Positions 12,795 through 29,570 of a stretch of 64,000 nucleotides of DNA are shown here, piece by piece. The stretch covers positions 227,005 to 291,004 of the forward strand of contig JACPTG010000001.1 of the NCBI GenBank assembly GCA_016192905.1. Direction: 5' to 3'. The position numbers and the translations under genes were made by a program. The notes under the pieces are model-generated. The model searched no databases and was not told the origin of the DNA. It saw only the letters and a list, made by a program, of their open reading frames with translations. The first letter of the stretch is position 1; each line of letters opens with the position of its first letter. Origin of the DNA: Candidatus Woesearchaeota archaeon (GTDB lineage: Archaea > Nanobdellota > Nanobdellia > Woesearchaeales > UBA10216).

Positions 12795-12869
12795 GGGGCC
12801 GTAGTGTAGCTTGGTCTATCACTCCACCTTGGGGTGGTGGTAACCCCGGTTCAAATCCGGGCGGTCCCA
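12795..12869 (+). tRNA. tRNA-Pro (GGG), no intron
   Basis: Acceptor GGGGCCG/CGGTCCC, anticodon arm CCACC-TTGGGGT-GGTGG, T-loop TTCAAAT. Confidence 0.93.
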
Positions 12870-12955
12870 CTATTAGTTTATGGTTCGGGGTTTGTGGTTC
12901 TGAAACTGCGGGTTCTGTCTGGGATTTAAGCAAGCATCAGCTTGAGGAAGCAATA
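12849..12955 (+). repeat. 107-bp direct repeat copy 1 (tRNA-Pro 3' end plus flank)
   Basis: Matches 15560-15666 with 3 mismatches by hand alignment. Confidence 0.95.
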
Positions 12956-13064
12956 TGTGGTTTTGTATGTATAGATATTTTCAGGGTTAATGTTCTTTAT
13001 ATGAGCTTGAAATGTTTGAATACATCAATAATCACTGTTGATTTAACTTTTTTAAGAGAGTATA

Positions 13065-13154
13065 TCACTGCTGCATGAGGCAATGGGTTGTCAAGCCCGA
13101 TTTTTTCCCGATTATTACTCCGTCAACATCCAAAATCACACCTTTTATTGCCAT
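13065..13154 (-). pseudogene. HAD-superfamily hydrolase N-terminal fragment
   Basis: MAIKGVILDVDGVIIGKKSGL then stop; DxDG motif of HAD proteins. Confidence 0.5.
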
Positions 13155-13329
13155 TTCATCACCTCGGTTTGCCTTTTTATATATATGTATATATATTTTC
13201 TGAGGGATACTGCAGTCCAATGCCGACCAGATAGCCTGTGAACTCAAGACAGATTTGTTCATTACAAATGCACAAAGGTGTTCATTAGTAATGAAAAGAT
13301 TTAAATATTCAAGGACTACCTGTCATAGA

Positions 13330-14586
13330 ATGATACTTAAGGATGTATTAAGGGGCATTGTGCGATCCCAAAGGGAAGCCTTGCTTTCAATGGATGGGGG
13401 CGTGAAACGTGAGGCTTTCAAGAAAATAGTGCTGAACTCGCCTTTTGCAATAACATTATCAGGTGTCAGAAGATGTGGAAAGAGTACTTTGCTCAAACAG
13501 ATTTCCAGAAAGCTTGATACTTTCTATTATTTCAATTTTGAGGATCCCCGTCTCGCAGCCTTTGAAGTGGAAGATTTCCAGAAGCTTAACGAAGTCTTTG
13601 AGGAAGAATTTGGAAAATGCGATTACTACCTTCTTGATGAAATACAGAATGTTAAAGGCTGGGAGCTTTTCGTGAGGTCAATGCTCGACAGGGGGGGACG
13701 TTTTGTCATTACAGGCTCAAACGCTTCTTTGCTAAGCAGGGAACTCGGAACCAGGCTGACTGGAAGGCATATAAGATATGAGCTTTTTCCATTCTCCTTC
13801 AGGGAATTCCTTTCTTTTAACAAATTTCGACCGGATGAAAGTTCGTTCTCGGACTATCTAAGCAGAGGAGGTTTCCCTGATTATCTGCGATTTACAAGGC
13901 CTGATGTGCTGCAGGAGCTTTTGAATGACGTGATTGCAAGGGATATAATTGTGAGGCGCGGCATTAGGAATGTGAAGGTTGTAAAGGAGCTGGCGATTTA
14001 TCTCATTACCAACATCGGAAAGGAATTTTCTTATAACGCTCTGAAAAAGCTGTTTATGCTGGGCTCAGTAAACAGCGCGATAAACTTTGTTTCCTCTCTT
14101 GAAGAGAGCTATCTTCTTTTTACAGTCCCAAGGTTTGACTATTCCTTAAAAAGCCAGATTGTAAACCCCAAAAAAATTTATTGCATTGACAATGGATTGG
14201 CTGTTGTCAACTCTGCTTCGTTCTCGGAAGACAGAGGGAGACTGCTTGAAAATGTGGTCTTCCTTGAGCTTAGGAGGAGGCATAAGGAGATTTTTTACTT
14301 CAGGGGCAATGGCGAGTGCGATTTTCTTGTGAAAGAAGCTGGCAAAATTGTTGATGCAGTGCAGGTGTGTTGGGAACTGAATAGCGACAATACCAAGCAC
14401 GAGCTTGAAGGTCTTCAAGAGGCGGCCATCAAATCAGGGCTAAAGCGTGGCTTGGTGCTTACATTCTCGCAGGAGGACAAACTAGATTATGAAGGCATTC
14501 ACGTTGATGTTCTTCCTGTGTGGAAGTGGATGACTTCGCTTGCTGCAAAAAATTCTGATATTGATGGAAAAAAAGGGAAATACTGA
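13330..14586 (+). CDS. ATPase with AAA_14 / DUF4143-like architecture
   Basis: LSGVRRCGKSTLLKQI, YYLLDEIQNVKGWELFVRSM, FLELRRR..EIFYFRGNGECDFLV. Confidence 0.9.
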   Translation: MILKDVLRGIVRSQREALLSMDGGVKREAFKKIVLNSPFAITLSGVRRCGKSTLLKQISRKLDTFYYFNFEDPRLAAFEVEDFQKLNEVFEEEFGKCDYYLLDEIQNVKGWELFVRSMLDRGGRFVITGSNASLLSRELGTRLTGRHIRYELFPFSFREFLSFNKFRPDESSFSDYLSRGGFPDYLRFTRPDVLQELLNDVIARDIIVRRGIRNVKVVKELAIYLITNIGKEFSYNALKKLFMLGSVNSAINFVSSLEESYLLFTVPRFDYSLKSQIVNPKKIYCIDNGLAVVNSASFSEDRGRLLENVVFLELRRRHKEIFYFRGNGECDFLVKEAGKIVDAVQVCWELNSDNTKHELEGLQEAAIKSGLKRGLVLTFSQEDKLDYEGIHVDVLPVWKWMTSLAAKNSDIDGKKGKY

Positions 14587-14814
14587 AAGAAAGAAGGCAG
14601 AAACTGAACCCCAGAAACCAAACCGCAGTGAACCACAAACCACCGACTACAAACCACAAACAGCCCTTGAACTAAGCAAGGAGCTAAGCTTCATAGACCT
14701 CCAGATATGCACAAGCCTAAAAGTCAAACCAATCACGTGGGCGCAATGCCCACAAACCTGATAAACAAGATGTGCAAGAATGACATTAAATAATCACTGA
14801 TGGGGGAGCCTTTT

Positions 14815-14913
14815 ATGATGCTGATATTAATTGATGGCGGGCCAGCTTCGGGGAAAAATACCATTGGAACTTTACTGGCGAATGAGTTTCATAATTGCCA
14901 AAGATATAAGTAA
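14815..14913 (+). pseudogene. Truncated P-loop nucleotide kinase fragment
   Basis: MMLILIDGGPASGKNTIGTLLANEFHNCQRYK then stop; Walker A. Confidence 0.5.
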
Positions 14914-15054
14914 ACATCTCACCTTTATCATTTAAATGCTCCCTTAATTGATTTGAATAAAGATCAAAAAGAAGGTGGGAAAAAAGGAACGCTTGAAAAA
15001 TGAGAAAAACAAAACTTTAAATATATGTAAGGCATATCTTACTTGGTGATTTAA

Positions 15055-15312
15055 ATGGGCATAGCAATAACGACAATGAGTTCCAAAGGCCAGGTAGTAA
15101 TACCTTCTGAATTAAGGAGCGGGTTTAAGGAAGGCGACAAGCTATTGATTATTCGCAACGATGAACGAATAATAATGAAAAAGGCTGATAAAAATCTTGA
15201 GCAGGACCTTGAGTTTGCAAAAAGAGCTGATGAGGCATTCAGGAAATATGAGCGTGGCGAATTCGTGGAAGAGGATTTTGACAAGTTTTTAGAAAAAGCC
15301 AAAAAATGGTAA
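15055..15312 (+). CDS. AbrB/SpoVT-type antitoxin
   Basis: TTMSSKGQVVIPSELRSGFKEGDKLLIIRNDERIIMKK; overlaps next ORF by 7 nt. Confidence 0.85.
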   Translation: MGIAITTMSSKGQVVIPSELRSGFKEGDKLLIIRNDERIIMKKADKNLEQDLEFAKRADEAFRKYERGEFVEEDFDKFLEKAKKW

Positions 15313-15554
15313 TTGTCGCCTATAATGACGAATTTCAAAAGACGTTCTCCAAAATTAAGGATGCCTTACTGAAACAAAAAGTCCTAAAACAGCTTTCCAA
15401 ACTAAGGGATTATCCTGAGGTTGGAAAGCCGATGAGGTTCGCGAGGCAGGGTACCAGGGAAATCCATATTTCCCCTTACCGTTTATCATACCTGTTTCTT
15501 AAGGACCAAAATAAGATCATAATACTTGATCTTTACCACAAAGATGAACAGTGA
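15306..15554 (+). CDS. RelE/ParE-type toxin
   Basis: FQKTFSKIKDALLKQKVLKQLSKLRDYPEVGKPMRFARQGTREIHISPYRLSYLF. Confidence 0.85.
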   Translation: MVIVAYNDEFQKTFSKIKDALLKQKVLKQLSKLRDYPEVGKPMRFARQGTREIHISPYRLSYLFLKDQNKIIILDLYHKDEQ

Positions 15555-15559
15555 GCCTT

Positions 15560-15666
15560 GTTCAAATCCGGGCGGCCCCACTATTAGTTTATGGTTCGGG
15601 GTTTGTGGTTCTGGAACTGCGGGCTCTGTCTGGGATTTAAGCAAGCATCAGCTTGAGGAAGCAATA
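15560..15666 (+). repeat. 107-bp direct repeat copy 2 (tRNA-Pro 3' fragment plus flank)
   Basis: See 12849-12955. Confidence 0.95.
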
Positions 15667-15768
15667 CACAAGCTGATAGCAGTTTTTTCCAGGCTAACCG
15701 CATAGGTAAGTAAGCTGTAAAAGCACGCAAAACAATATATTTAATAATGAATCAGCAACAGACAGACC

Positions 15769-16236
15769 ATGCTTAGAAGAGGAGGCTTGTTCCAGTCCAT
15801 TGTGATTCTAACTGTATTGTCAGCCATAATTCTGGCAAGCGCAAGTTTTATCGATGGCAAACATTGGATTGGAACTATTCTTGTTTTTCTTGGAATTGGG
15901 CACATAATGATTCTGAACGCTCTTGAACGGGCGTCATACAAAGCTGTCCTGCCTGACATAGTATTTGGATTAGTGGATAATGGATTGCTTGTTGCTGGAG
16001 CAGTCATAGGAGCAGAATTTGCAGGCATATTCGGAGCTGTAGTTGGAGCTGCGGCGATGAACACGGTAACTGACGGGCTTGCAGGGCTTTTTGAGGGGGT
16101 AGCTGTCGAACATTTAAGAAGCCAAAAAATCAGGCAAAAAAGAACTGCATTAACAACATCAATGGGAAAAATGGCAGGATGCCTGATTGGAGCCGGAGCA
16201 GCATTAATCCTGTTCTGGAACATACTTGGATTTTGA
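15769..16236 (+). CDS. Hypothetical membrane protein
   Basis: ORF track; several hydrophobic segments. Confidence 0.6.
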   Translation: MLRRGGLFQSIVILTVLSAIILASASFIDGKHWIGTILVFLGIGHIMILNALERASYKAVLPDIVFGLVDNGLLVAGAVIGAEFAGIFGAVVGAAAMNTVTDGLAGLFEGVAVEHLRSQKIRQKRTALTTSMGKMAGCLIGAGAALILFWNILGF

Positions 16237-16260
16237 CATTATTTTACAGATAAATTTAGT

Positions 16261-17217
16261 TCAATATCCCGCTATCTTATCAATCAGACTGGGCATACTT
16301 TCGCCTTTCATATATGCCCTTAAATTTTCACTCAGCAAATCAAGCGCCCTATCCAGATAATGAGGCGTGTCGCCTGCGCTGTGGGCAGTCACTATGACAT
16401 TTTGCATAATCCACAGCGGGCTTTCCGCTGGCAAAGGTTCGGTTTCAAATACATCAAGGCACGCCCCCCTTATTTTCCTGTCTCCAAGCGCGCTGATTAA
16501 ATCCTGTTCAATTACAGTTTTCCCTCGACCCACATTAACAAAAAGGGCTGTTTTCTTCATTGCTCCAAACATCCCCTTATTGAATATGCCTTTAGTTTCC
16601 TGTGTAAGGGGCAAAACTGACACCACATAGTCAGCCTTAGACACAGCTTGCCTAAGCCTGTCTGTTTTATGCACCAGATCAAAATATTGCCCTTCCTTTC
16701 CTTTTCTGCTTATTCCTATTGTTTTGCACCCCATCGCCTTTGCAAGCAAAGCAATTCTTCCCCCGATTCTTCCTGTTCCTACTATGCAAAAAGTCTTGCC
16801 AGCAACCTCCTGTATTCCAAAATTACCAATCCATTTCTTTTTCTCCTGATTTTCTATTGAAATCTTGAGTCCACGCTCAAAAGCTAAAATCATTGCAAAT
16901 GCGTGCTCTGAAACGGGAATCATGTGTACTCCGCTTGAATTGGTAACTAAAATTCCGGAGTTCACAACTTCAGGCACAAGAATTTGGTCAACTCCTGCTG
17001 CAAATGAATGAATCCATTTCAATTTTGGAGAAACAAATTCTTGGCTGAAGAATGAAGGAAAACATGCCAGGACGTCCGCCTCTTTAGACAGCTTAAGCAA
17101 TTCGTCATAACCCCTGCAAACCCTTACGCTGCAGCCCTTCAGCAAGGCCTGCGCCTTTCTTTCAGGTGGAAGGATGCTTGGGTTTTTCTGATCGTAGGAT
17201 ATTACCAGTTTTAACAT
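16261..17217 (-). CDS. D-isomer-specific 2-hydroxyacid dehydrogenase
   Basis: GTGRIGGRIALLAKAMGCKTIGI, VNVGRGKTVIEQDLI; start trimmed to MLKLVISYD. Confidence 0.9.
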   Translation of the reverse strand: MLKLVISYDQKNPSILPPERKAQALLKGCSVRVCRGYDELLKLSKEADVLACFPSFFSQEFVSPKLKWIHSFAAGVDQILVPEVVNSGILVTNSSGVHMIPVSEHAFAMILAFERGLKISIENQEKKKWIGNFGIQEVAGKTFCIVGTGRIGGRIALLAKAMGCKTIGISRKGKEGQYFDLVHKTDRLRQAVSKADYVVSVLPLTQETKGIFNKGMFGAMKKTALFVNVGRGKTVIEQDLISALGDRKIRGACLDVFETEPLPAESPLWIMQNVIVTAHSAGDTPHYLDRALDLLSENLRAYMKGESMPSLIDKIAGY

Positions 17218-17288
17218 AATCAGATTTTGTCCACAAAGATTTATAGATATTTCTTTTAACTGTTGAAACTTGGGCATTTTCCTGCCGA

Positions 17289-17450
17289 TGTGTGTATATG
17301 CGGGGAAATTTACAAATAAATTTCGCCTGGGTTTAAAACCCCGCCCTTTAGGGCGAAATTTATTGTTCCAAAAATCCGCCATTGAAGCGAGGAGCGTAAA
17401 GCCTCGTGCCTTCAGGCCGAGGATAGCTCCGAGCGGCGGATTTTTGTTAC
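17289..17450. repeat. Tandem stem-loop structures resembling IS200/IS605-type end hairpins
   Basis: AAATTTCGCC..GGCGAAATTT; AAAAATCCGCC..GGCGGATTTTT enclosing GGAGC..GCTCC and CCTCGTGCC-TTCA-GGCCGAGG. Confidence 0.6.
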
Positions 17451-17528
17451 TTTGATGAATCAACTGCTGCACACATACAGTCAAAGTCCAAGCAACTGGG
17501 ATTGTTCGGTCTGGCAAGAAAAGCCAAG

Positions 17529-17657
17529 GTGGCGGAAATCGGGAATAGTCTTGCAATAAGAATACCGAAGGAAATCGCACAATTCATGAATCTGAAGAAA
17601 GGCGAGGAGGTGATTGTGCTTCCAGAAGGGAAAAAACAAATCAAGATCGGCATCTGA
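17529..17657 (+). pseudogene. AbrB-type antitoxin remnant or very short GTG-start ORF
   Basis: VAEIGNSLAIRIPKEIAQFMNLKKGEEVIVLPEGKKQIKIGI*; frame open upstream without ATG. Confidence 0.5.
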
Positions 17658-17693
17658 AGGGGCCCGCAAAAATTTTAAAAATAGGGTGATTCC

Positions 17694-18188
17694 ATGAATG
17701 AAACAGTTGTGTTTGAGACATCAGAAGGCGTTATAGAAGTTGAGTTGGACAGGCAAAAGGCCCCCACAACAGTCGAGAATTTTGTAGGCTATGTCAACAA
17801 TGGCTTTTACGATGGCACAATATTCCACAGGGTCATAAAAGGCTTCATGATTCAGGGTGGCGGATTTTTATCAGATGGGAGAGAGAAGCCGACAATGCCC
17901 CCTATCAGGCTTGAGTCATCAAACGGATTAAGGAACCTGATTGGCACAATCGCCATGGCAAGGACTGACGACCCTGACAGCGCGACATCACAGTTTTTCA
18001 TAAACACGGCCAACAACGGCTTCCTTGACCATAACGCCAATAATGATGGCTACGCTGTCTTTGGAAAGGTCACAAAAGGCCTGGATGTTGTCAAGAAAAT
18101 TGAATCTGTCCAGACAGCCTCCAAAGGTTCTTATGATAATTGGCCTGTTAAGGCTGTCGTGATAAAAAAGGCGTACATAAAGACCTGA
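17694..18188 (+). CDS. Peptidyl-prolyl cis-trans isomerase, cyclophilin type
   Basis: [19 protein letters not shown] ... [15 protein letters not shown] ... [13 protein letters not shown]. Confidence 0.95.
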
Positions 18189-18258
18189 TTTTTGGCAGGA
18201 CTAAAAACAATTAGAAAACTATTTAAATACCTGTCCTCAGTTTTCCGGTCTGGGTGAA

Positions 18259-19698
18259 TTGATTTTGGGTGCTAAAAGAGGGGTTTTGCTGGCAGTCCTC
18301 CTAATCCTTGCCTTTGCCATGGCGGTCAGGGCTGAGAAGTTCAGCGTTGCATCCTATCCAGTTCAGGACTCAATAACAGGCAATGAGCAGGCAGAGTACC
18401 AGCTTGCCATTACAAACAACCAGGCGGCCGAAGATACATTCAGGATACGGGCTCCTGAGGTTTTCTGGAGCATACAGTCAAAGCCGCTTTACCAGTACTT
18501 CAGCGGAGTTGACATACCGCCAAGAAGCTCAGAGTCTGTTGTGCTGCTGGTAAATCCCATTCAGGACCTTCCGGCAGGCCAGTACAAGGTTGAGATAGAT
18601 GTAGAGTCGCTTAACACAGGAGAGGTTCAGCAGGCGTTCCTTATTGTAAATGTAAGGGGCGGGAGCCTGCCTGTAAGGGAATACCTGCCGAGCGTTGCCA
18701 GAAGGGTTGAAATGCCTGGCAAGATAGACCCCAGGCAGCCGGTTCAGGTTACAATAATCCTTGAGAACAAGAATCCCAGAAAAATTGAATCCCTGTCAAT
18801 TTCAGGCGTGAGCGCAACCTTCAAGGCAGAAGCTGCGACTTCACTTGAGCCTCTTGGAAAAAAAGTTGTCAGGCTGAATGTCTCCTTAAGCCCTTCCACA
18901 ACGCCTCAGAAGGATACTGCTGTATGGAGCTTCCAGGCAGGGGATTATCCCCTTGAACCTGTGAAGATTTCCTATGAAGTCATAGCATATTCCGATGTCG
19001 CCTCGGCAAAGAAGCCTGCGGAGTCTGCATTCCTTGCCTCGGTTGATGAAACCGTCTATGAGAACAGGGGGAACAGCGTAGCCTACCAGACAGTCAAGCA
19101 TCCCACAAATTTCCTGAAGAGGATTTTTACATCAACAGAACCTTCTGCCAGCTATGTTTCAGGCCCAGACGGCTCATTCCTGGTCTGGGAGATTGCCCTT
19201 CAGCCAGGCGAAAAAGCAACAGTGCGGGTTGTGGAGAATTACAGGATACTTGCGGTATTGCTGCTCCTTGCGGCAGTAATGGCTGTGCTCTATTACTTCT
19301 TCAGGAGCCCGGTCACAATCAGGAAGGAAGCGGCCATAATAGGCTTTGAGGAAGGCGGAATATCTGACATTAAAGTCATACTTCACGCAAGAAACAGAAC
19401 CAGAAGGGCTTTCGAAAGGCTAACGCTGGTTGACAGGGTTCCTGCCATAGCCACAATAGCCAAAGAAATGGAGATTGGCTCCCTGAAGCCGGTAAAGACA
19501 GTCAATTCACGGGAAGGCATGCTGATAAGGTGGGAGCTTGAGAACCTTGAGAAATATGAGGAAAGGGTATTCTCCTACACTATCAAGTCAAAGCTTTCTA
19601 TATTAGGGAGATTCACCCTGCCAAGGTGCACTGCAAAGTTCAATGAAGGCGCAACTGAGAGGAAGACTTCCTCTAATACTGTTACACTCTCTATTTAG
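18259..19698 (+). CDS. Secreted/membrane protein with Ig-like repeats
   Basis: N-terminal signal, internal TM segment (LAVLLLLAAVMAVLYYFF). Confidence 0.6.
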   Translation: MILGAKRGVLLAVLLILAFAMAVRAEKFSVASYPVQDSITGNEQAEYQLAITNNQAAEDTFRIRAPEVFWSIQSKPLYQYFSGVDIPPRSSESVVLLVNPIQDLPAGQYKVEIDVESLNTGEVQQAFLIVNVRGGSLPVREYLPSVARRVEMPGKIDPRQPVQVTIILENKNPRKIESLSISGVSATFKAEAATSLEPLGKKVVRLNVSLSPSTTPQKDTAVWSFQAGDYPLEPVKISYEVIAYSDVASAKKPAESAFLASVDETVYENRGNSVAYQTVKHPTNFLKRIFTSTEPSASYVSGPDGSFLVWEIALQPGEKATVRVVENYRILAVLLLLAAVMAVLYYFFRSPVTIRKEAAIIGFEEGGISDIKVILHARNRTRRAFERLTLVDRVPAIATIAKEMEIGSLKPVKTVNSREGMLIRWELENLEKYEERVFSYTIKSKLSILGRFTLPRCTAKFNEGATERKTSSNTVTLSI

Positions 19699-26186: not shown

Positions 26187-26285
26187 TACAATAACTAATA
26201 GCAGGCTGTTCCTGCCTTGCTTCAGCCGCCCCTTTCGGGAAGTCGTTACGTGTACTGTCTGGCTTTGTGCACTGTTCTGCAATGT
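26187..26285. repeat. ~95-nt structured repeat copy A upstream of S-layer gene
   Basis: Similar to 29470-29570; shared aatagcaggctg, gcccctttcggg, gt-t/c-actg.ctggctt.gtgcactg blocks. Confidence 0.75.
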
Positions 26286-29469: not shown

Positions 29470-29570
29470 GACTAATAGCAGGCTGTGGCTGACTTGGCTT
29501 AAGATGCCCCTTTCGGGGTTCGGGACGTGCACTGGCTGGCTTCGTGCACTGCTTTGGAATGTTCAAAATT
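29470..29570. repeat. ~95-nt structured repeat copy B downstream of S-layer gene
   Basis: See 26187-26285. Confidence 0.75.

Follow-up and report, generated by a model that had tools for sequence, protein, structure and literature searches.

The stretch analyzed here (the window) comprises 64,000 nucleotides of contig JACPTG010000001.1 (positions 227,005 to 291,004, forward strand) from the Candidatus Woesearchaeota archaeon assembly GCA_016192905.1. In it, a tRNA-Pro(GGG) gene is followed by an islet of 2.7 kb, in which a solo AAA_14-DUF4143 ATPase gene and an AbrB-RelE pair stand between two copies of a 107-bp repeat. We favor, with moderate confidence, the explanation that this islet arose by accretion of small accessory-gene modules at the tRNA-Pro 3' end, which would have been copied once with every insertion; the explanation names no enzyme. 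Its observed basis is the following: (i) the site is empty in relatives, (ii) an array of modules occupies the same site in another genome, G003, (iii) the same bracket anatomy is found at the 3' ends of many unrelated genes in the order Woesearchaeales, and (iv) modules at unrelated sites share 93% DNA identity.

The tRNA-Pro locus in the window and in relatives

Under the favored explanation, tRNA-Pro(GGG) has repeatedly received insertions at its 3' end within this woesearchaeal family. The gene order in G007 and G001 is PGI, Rad50, tRNA-Pro, and a homolog of the window gene at 18259-19698, and in G013 it is Rad50, tRNA-Pro, and the same homolog. A search for empty sites in relatives, proposed in an earlier note made on this DNA from its letters alone, found them in G007 and G013, where the homolog stands nearly directly behind tRNA-Pro (after ~80 bp in G007). 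The possibility raised in that note that the region is ancestral did not hold up, as G007 and G013 are empty; the region was acquired. The ~86-bp flank included in the proximal repeat copy was not seen behind the tRNA in G001, G007, and G013 and is thus non-ancestral. The corresponding gap of ~125 bp in G001 contains 48 bp with 92% identity to window positions 13254-13301, followed by CACACCACAAACCACAAACCG and, after this, by the promoter-like stretch of the downstream homolog; it therefore retains a scar made of an ATPase operator-like region and a ACCACAAACC tract. Judging from these matches, an ATPase module seems to have once stood at the G001 tRNA-Pro. The operator-like scar, together with the empty sites, indicates that the segment was acquired.

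In G003, a Candidatus Woesearchaeota genome, the first gene behind tRNA-Pro encodes a DUF4143 ATPase, as in the window; the protein is 50% identical to the window ATPase and is closer to the G013 ATPase, which is encoded at a different location (74%). Next to the ATPase gene come a first tRNA 3'-end copy, genes for a nucleotidyltransferase and a 140-aa open reading frame (ORF), a second copy, genes for a GNAT protein and another nucleotidyltransferase, and a third copy. Beyond the third copy, a stretch matches the sequence behind the first ATPase gene (70% over 131 bp), as if it were a remnant of a second, lost ATPase gene. The tract on the 3' side of the window ATPase (Table 1) has a counterpart behind the G003 ATPase, with 89% identity over 53 bp. 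In G003, GTTTGTGG/ACCACAAAC tracts stand on either side of the tRNA-end copies, and a tract of this kind also follows the window ATPase. A role of these tracts as a genome-wide repeat was considered and dropped, because the word, when scanned in the window, was found in the islet alone and is no common intergenic repeat there.

Direct repeats with one copy inside a tRNA 3' end are a feature of integrase-type tRNA islands, and this layout was found in the window. The islet might accordingly be a classical integrative element, the 107-bp copies being attL and attR and the integrase lost or acting in trans, an explanation that we consider possible but on balance doubtful. Its target would be the tRNA 3' half from the T loop onward, which suits such an element; the tracts on either side of the core in G003 resemble integrase arm sites, and the genome search suggested in the earlier note revealed three tyrosine-recombinase matches (C1:46333, C1:148786, and C2:141972). 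All three are located outside the islet, which indeed lacks a visible integrase, as the note had stated, and none of the PF00589 matches of the genome falls inside the window; moreover, the two larger ones lie ~1.3 kb from tRNA-Glu and ~0.5 kb from tRNA-Arg and not by tRNA-Pro. Patterns resembling these att sites were found in four stretches of genome contigs (the G003 contig and three bacterial ones), in no viral contig, and in 2/352 genomes of the order. This sparseness suggests that the core-and-arm pattern is local; the general signal arose solely from examining the ATPase. Similar brackets, described below, occur without an integrase at the 3' ends of protein genes, which also speaks against an integrative element.

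A local tandem duplication of the tRNA 3' end without mobile DNA, between whose products the intervening genes arrived independently, is very improbable. Cargo-free extra copies of the tRNA-Pro end, as found in tandem in G010 (two, L021) and G006 (one, L016), speak for it, whereas the absence of the region from G007 and G013, the G003 ATPase in the same place, and the operator-like scar in G001 speak against it. The cargo-free copies are possibly excision scars or raw material for insertion. Two tRNA-Pro genes with extra sequence were missed by ARAGORN: that of G001 (L037, 6948-7059), where the extra sequence is near the anticodon, and that of G003 (L038, ~10125-10030), where it is in the D-arm region and a partial 5' tRNA copy precedes the gene. 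In both cases, the extra sequence is probably an archaeal tRNA intron.

The distal repeat copy reads CGGCCCC where the tRNA has CGGTCCC, a difference correctly recorded in the earlier note, which took the original tRNA 3' end to have been displaced and the current one to be supplied by the element. We dropped this displacement, since the G4-U69 wobble pair is conserved in G001, G003, and G007 (3' acceptor cggtccc, opposite GGGGCCG, in the first two and cagtccc in G007). G013 and further distant tRNA-Pro genes have GGCCCC, and hence the state varies within the family. Given the shared pair, the present tRNA end would most simply be the inherited state, and the C of the distal copy would have arisen later, in a sequence that is not under selection.

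The islet is the first half of a variable region that extends beyond the distal copy to ~18.2 kb, up to the promoter of the conserved downstream gene (Table 1). The two repeat copies differ at 12865 (T/C), 12903 (A/G), and 12913 (T/C), in agreement with the three mismatches reported before, and their similarity is far above chance (E = 1.6e-48 with 1.5-kb flanks). They constitute one of just two direct-repeat families of at least 26 nt within 8 kb in the window; the other is formed by 26194-26285 and 29471-29562 (92 nt, 73%, 3277 apart). A search for further copies across the genome (1,429,225 bases in 6 contigs), with the tRNA and its flank as the query, yielded just these two, and a short-contig artifact is unlikely, because the contig of the window has 623,706 bases. 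The inner repeat edges are ~375 bp upstream and ~973 bp downstream of the ATPase gene, and the toxin gene stops 5 bp short of the distal copy. The DUF4143-type ATPase and the AbrB/RelE pair recognized earlier between the copies were supported by Pfam; truncated HAD and P-loop kinase fragments, proposed from short motif-like peptides, were not confirmed. The ORF at 13065-13262 had no Pfam match and no convincing full-length relative among the loci compared. In the second half of the variable region, a GC-rich imperfect palindromic stretch (17305-17450) resembles DNA near the tRNA-Pro genes of G047 and G040 and looks like a small palindrome-rich mobile repeat, presumably of the IS605-derived type; an AbrB-like coding remnant, recognized by eye, follows it.

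Table 1. Features of the variable region behind tRNA-Pro(GGG), in window coordinates
Feature	Position	Strand	Source or remark
tRNA-Pro (GGG), target gene with copied 3' end	12795..12870	+	ARAGORN, Rfam
Proximal copy of the 107-bp repeat	12849..12955	+	Final 21-22 bp of the tRNA plus ~86 bp of flank
Tandem palindromic operator-like words TTCATTACAAATG / TTCATTAGTAATG, 5' of the ATPase	13254..13301	+	Scar kept in G001
Solo AAA_14 + DUF4143 ATPase, putative core module	13330..14586	+	Pfam; in-frame ATG at 13330; PADLOC PDC-S01 candidate
Conserved tract AGAAACCAAACCGCAG... ACCACAAACCAC..., 3' side of the ATPase module	14605..14661	+	G003 comparison
AbrB/MazE-family antitoxin	15055..15312	+	Pfam, NCBIfam
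ParE/RelE-family toxin	15306..15554	+	Pfam; NCBIfam RelE_StbE slightly below cut-off
Distal copy of the 107-bp repeat	15560..15666	+	Repeat comparison
Entire variable region, tRNA-Pro to promoter of the conserved downstream gene	12871..18200	.	Gene order in G001, G007, G013, G003

Copied gene ends around DUF4143 genes in Woesearchaeales

AAA_14-DUF4143 ATPases were found in 109/242 genomes of the order searched. For each DUF4143 ORF, we looked for a direct repeat of at least 40 bits between its 1-kb flanks, with other ORFs of 250-600 aa from the same loci as controls; thresholds of 30, 40, and 50 bits were all computed. Set A contained 78 loci with 72 DUF4143 ORFs, 6 of them without flanks, which left 66 tested; set B contained 80 loci from previously unused genomes with 91 DUF4143 ORFs, 10 of them without flanks, which left 81. 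The loci of set B were chosen in list order among the matches listed, mostly passing over those near contig ends. At 40 bits or more, repeats bracketed 15/66 solo DUF4143 genes versus 5/273 other ORFs in set A, a test that is not independent because the hypothesis arose on part of this set, and 19/81 versus 4/135 in set B (p = 3.9e-6), giving 34/147 versus 9/408 when pooled. The corresponding counts at 30 bits were 21/66 versus 10/273 and 22/81 versus 10/135, and those for repeats of at least 38 bits in 300-bp flanks were 8/66 versus 0/273 and 15/81 versus 2/135. Every repeat was kept in these counts, including the low-complexity ones of L092 and L159 and that of L203, in which two genes share one central repeat.

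The repeat sequences vary from locus to locus, which indicates that they belong to the target and not to the module. In 14/34 pairs, a copy extends over the 3' terminus of an ORF with 100 or more codons, compared with 166/1012 random windows (p = 7e-4), and in several of them (L137, L193, and L203) the repeat ends exactly at the stop codon (offset 0). That compact ATPase modules lacking an integrase recur at the 3' ends of many unrelated genes favors a different or more general process than an integrase acting in trans.

One case examined in detail involves a kinase-like gene with kinase Pfam matches, which we take to be Bud32. G013 has two copies of its 3' end (76 bp, 96% identical), one on either side of a DUF4143 gene; in G014, a DUF4143 gene occupies the same place and the second copy is decayed. 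The stretches examined around Bud32 in G011, G016, and G018 contain an Rrp42-like gene nearby and no DUF4143 match. Between G013 and G014 the DUF4143 proteins are 95% identical and the Bud32 proteins 72%, so that the DUF4143 unit seems to have traveled after its hosts split. Other loci form arrays: three gene-end copies surround two divergent DUF4143 genes in L203; in L195, further copies of a glycosyltransferase 3' end follow two DUF4143 genes and, once more, an SLFN_AlbA_2 gene; and four copies separate DUF4143 genes, a nucleotidyltransferase gene, AbiEii, and SLFN_AlbA_2 in L186. Such arrays have their tRNA counterpart in the window islet and at the G003 locus.

Brackets were also found around three other accessory families, PF01637 (2/25), PF05016 (2/25), and PF04326 (4/24), for each of which 30 loci were fetched and 25, 25, and 24, respectively, had flanks. 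Together (8/74) they exceed the ordinary ORFs (9/408, p = 0.0016), and the process is therefore not exclusive to DUF4143. This result, as well as the mixing of DUF4143, AbiEii, SLFN_AlbA_2, nucleotidyltransferase, and GNAT genes in the arrays, would suit a purely host-driven origin, in which DNA taken up from relatives recombines at one side, in a gene 3' end common to donor and recipient, and is joined illegitimately at the other, so that 3' ends are duplicated around selected cargo and DUF4143 is merely a common cargo. We consider such an origin improbable: DUF4143 genes are bracketed more often than the three families (34/147 versus 8/74, p = 0.019, for sets that differ in size and in selection), and near-identical DUF4143 units with sharp ends occur at unrelated sites.

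The ATPase, the putative mobile unit, and the candidate agents

These sharp ends were defined by pairs of DUF4143 genes with 72-95% protein identity and unrelated sites and flanks. The DNA shared within such pairs starts 28-118 bp before the start codon; its other end lies anywhere from 43 bp before the stop, still inside the gene, to 32 bp beyond it. In the sharpest pair, L253/L256 (94.6% identical, unrelated sites), the shared DNA is restricted to positions -64 to +15 of the gene, at 93.3% identity. Tandem palindromic words were found upstream of 19/160 DUF4143 genes versus 3/473 others (11/13 matches). These words vary by lineage (TTCATTAGTAATG, CTATTGTCAATAG, and others), which would fit a separate operator for every ATPase.

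The window ATPase scores above the cut-off in both Pfam domains (PF13173, 127 bits; PF13635, 71.5 bits) and matches PADLOC PDC-S01 with an E value of 3.5e-115. Its C-terminus has a helix-strand-strand-strand-helix-strand order in a low-confidence model; Foldseek with this model gave weak AAA+ matches alone, none at E 0.001, and no relative was found by sequence in the PDB. The structure prediction was kept out of the evidence for a mechanism. A viral contig (L262, IMGVR_UViG_3300025308_000337) also encodes a DUF4143 ATPase, 34% identical, near a tRNA-like, split-looking sequence at ~1421-1590.

Under the favored accretion of modules, the core module would be a promoter-and-ORF unit of ~1.4 kb with the solo ATPase, behind which lies the AbrB-RelE pair. 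With every insertion, the 3' end of the target would be copied to the distal side of the new module, leaving the target intact and the modules separated by copies. Modules may excise and integrate as circles bearing one copy, by recombination inside the duplicated sequence, and a rarer event would found a new site. Candidate agents are the ATPase itself, with a PD-(D/E)XK-like C-terminal domain whose motif is changed here, a trans-acting tyrosine recombinase, and host recombination. A bolder version, which we regard as speculative and rather unlikely, makes solo AAA_14-DUF4143 ATPase genes minimal self-moving genes: guided by the tandem palindromic operator, the product of the gene would insert its own ~1.4-kb operator-promoter-ORF unit behind tRNA or protein-gene 3' ends, copying that end and seeding integron-like arrays of defense modules without an integrase.

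Several observations weigh against the accretion of modules or against the ATPase as its agent. Repeats at 40 bits were absent from 113/147 tested DUF4143 genes, the controls are mechanical ORFs, some of which are surely no genes, and assemblies of metagenomic origin may misplace repeats. The window islet itself does not pass the 300-bp form of the test, its repeats lying further out, although many relatives do, and its 107-bp repeat runs 86 bp beyond the tRNA. The module ends at tRNA-Pro look locus-specific, being shared by the genome of the window (G000) and G003 despite ATPases just 50% identical, which fits classical att sites too. Since three accessory families are bracketed as well, the agent could be something other than the ATPase. 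The clade of the window ATPase has QVC instead of the EVK motif, which disfavors a working nuclease there, and the AlphaFold model, built from 3 sequences, is poor (pLDDT 55).

Significance and comparison with known systems

AAA_14-DUF4143 ATPases, which occur in many genomes of the order, are nearly unstudied: of the 5.39 million papers searched, one mentions DUF4143 and seven mention COG1373. The window ATPase likely belongs to COG1373. This COG is listed among the gene families shared between genera in a study of gene transfer in the gut (PMC10782964). The bracketed defense-like genes of related archaea hint at a little-known route of single-gene movement; the literature searched contained no description of this bracket anatomy for DUF4143 and nothing on a Woesearchaeota integrase. 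If these ATPases, or the process that carries them, can insert single genes behind those of a host and leave the latter intact, this would explain the scatter of defense and toxin-antitoxin genes in small archaeal genomes without obvious carriers, and a copy of a gene 3' end beyond a solo gene would become a searchable signature of integrase-free mobile genes.

Comparison with known systems revealed both common and distinct features. Like tRNA genomic islands and integrative and mobilizable elements, the loci described here have a tRNA 3' end as the target, bracketing direct repeats, and, in G003, tandem modules; unlike them, the modules read here have no integrase, consist of one or few genes, use protein-gene 3' ends as targets too, and are bracketed by repeats of 27-230 bp. 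The PDC-S01 candidate defense ATPases of PADLOC are matched by the window ATPase; the match is silent on mobility, and the defense role is that of a candidate only.

The attC sites of integrons carry the words RYYYAAC and GTTRRRY, neither of which was found in 12840-12975, 14560-14680, or 15540-15690, and no IntI is encoded next to the array; by these features, the islet is not an integron. Integron cassette arrays are reported to occur in archaea (PMC9668308) and share with the present loci the tandem accessory cassettes divided by a repeated site, whereas here the array has no adjacent integrase and the repeated site is the 3' end of a host gene.

Genes whose 3' end recurs beyond an ORF that follows them were found here as a class (the 14/34 pairs, Bud32, and the L195 glycosyltransferase) and, for the window tRNA, by direct reading. 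The same layout characterizes the mobile ORFs (mORFs) of fungal mitochondria, each of which follows a gene and is itself followed by a duplicate of that gene's 3' end (PMC3630166). The mORFs described there encode LAGLIDADG or GIY-YIG endonucleases, whereas the genes reported here encode an ATPase of the AAA_14-DUF4143 type, and the motif of its putative PD-(D/E)XK-like tail is changed in the window's clade. The architecture of the woesearchaeal loci is closest to fungal mitochondrial mORFs with C-terminal duplications, and that of their arrays to tandem accretion at tRNA genes.

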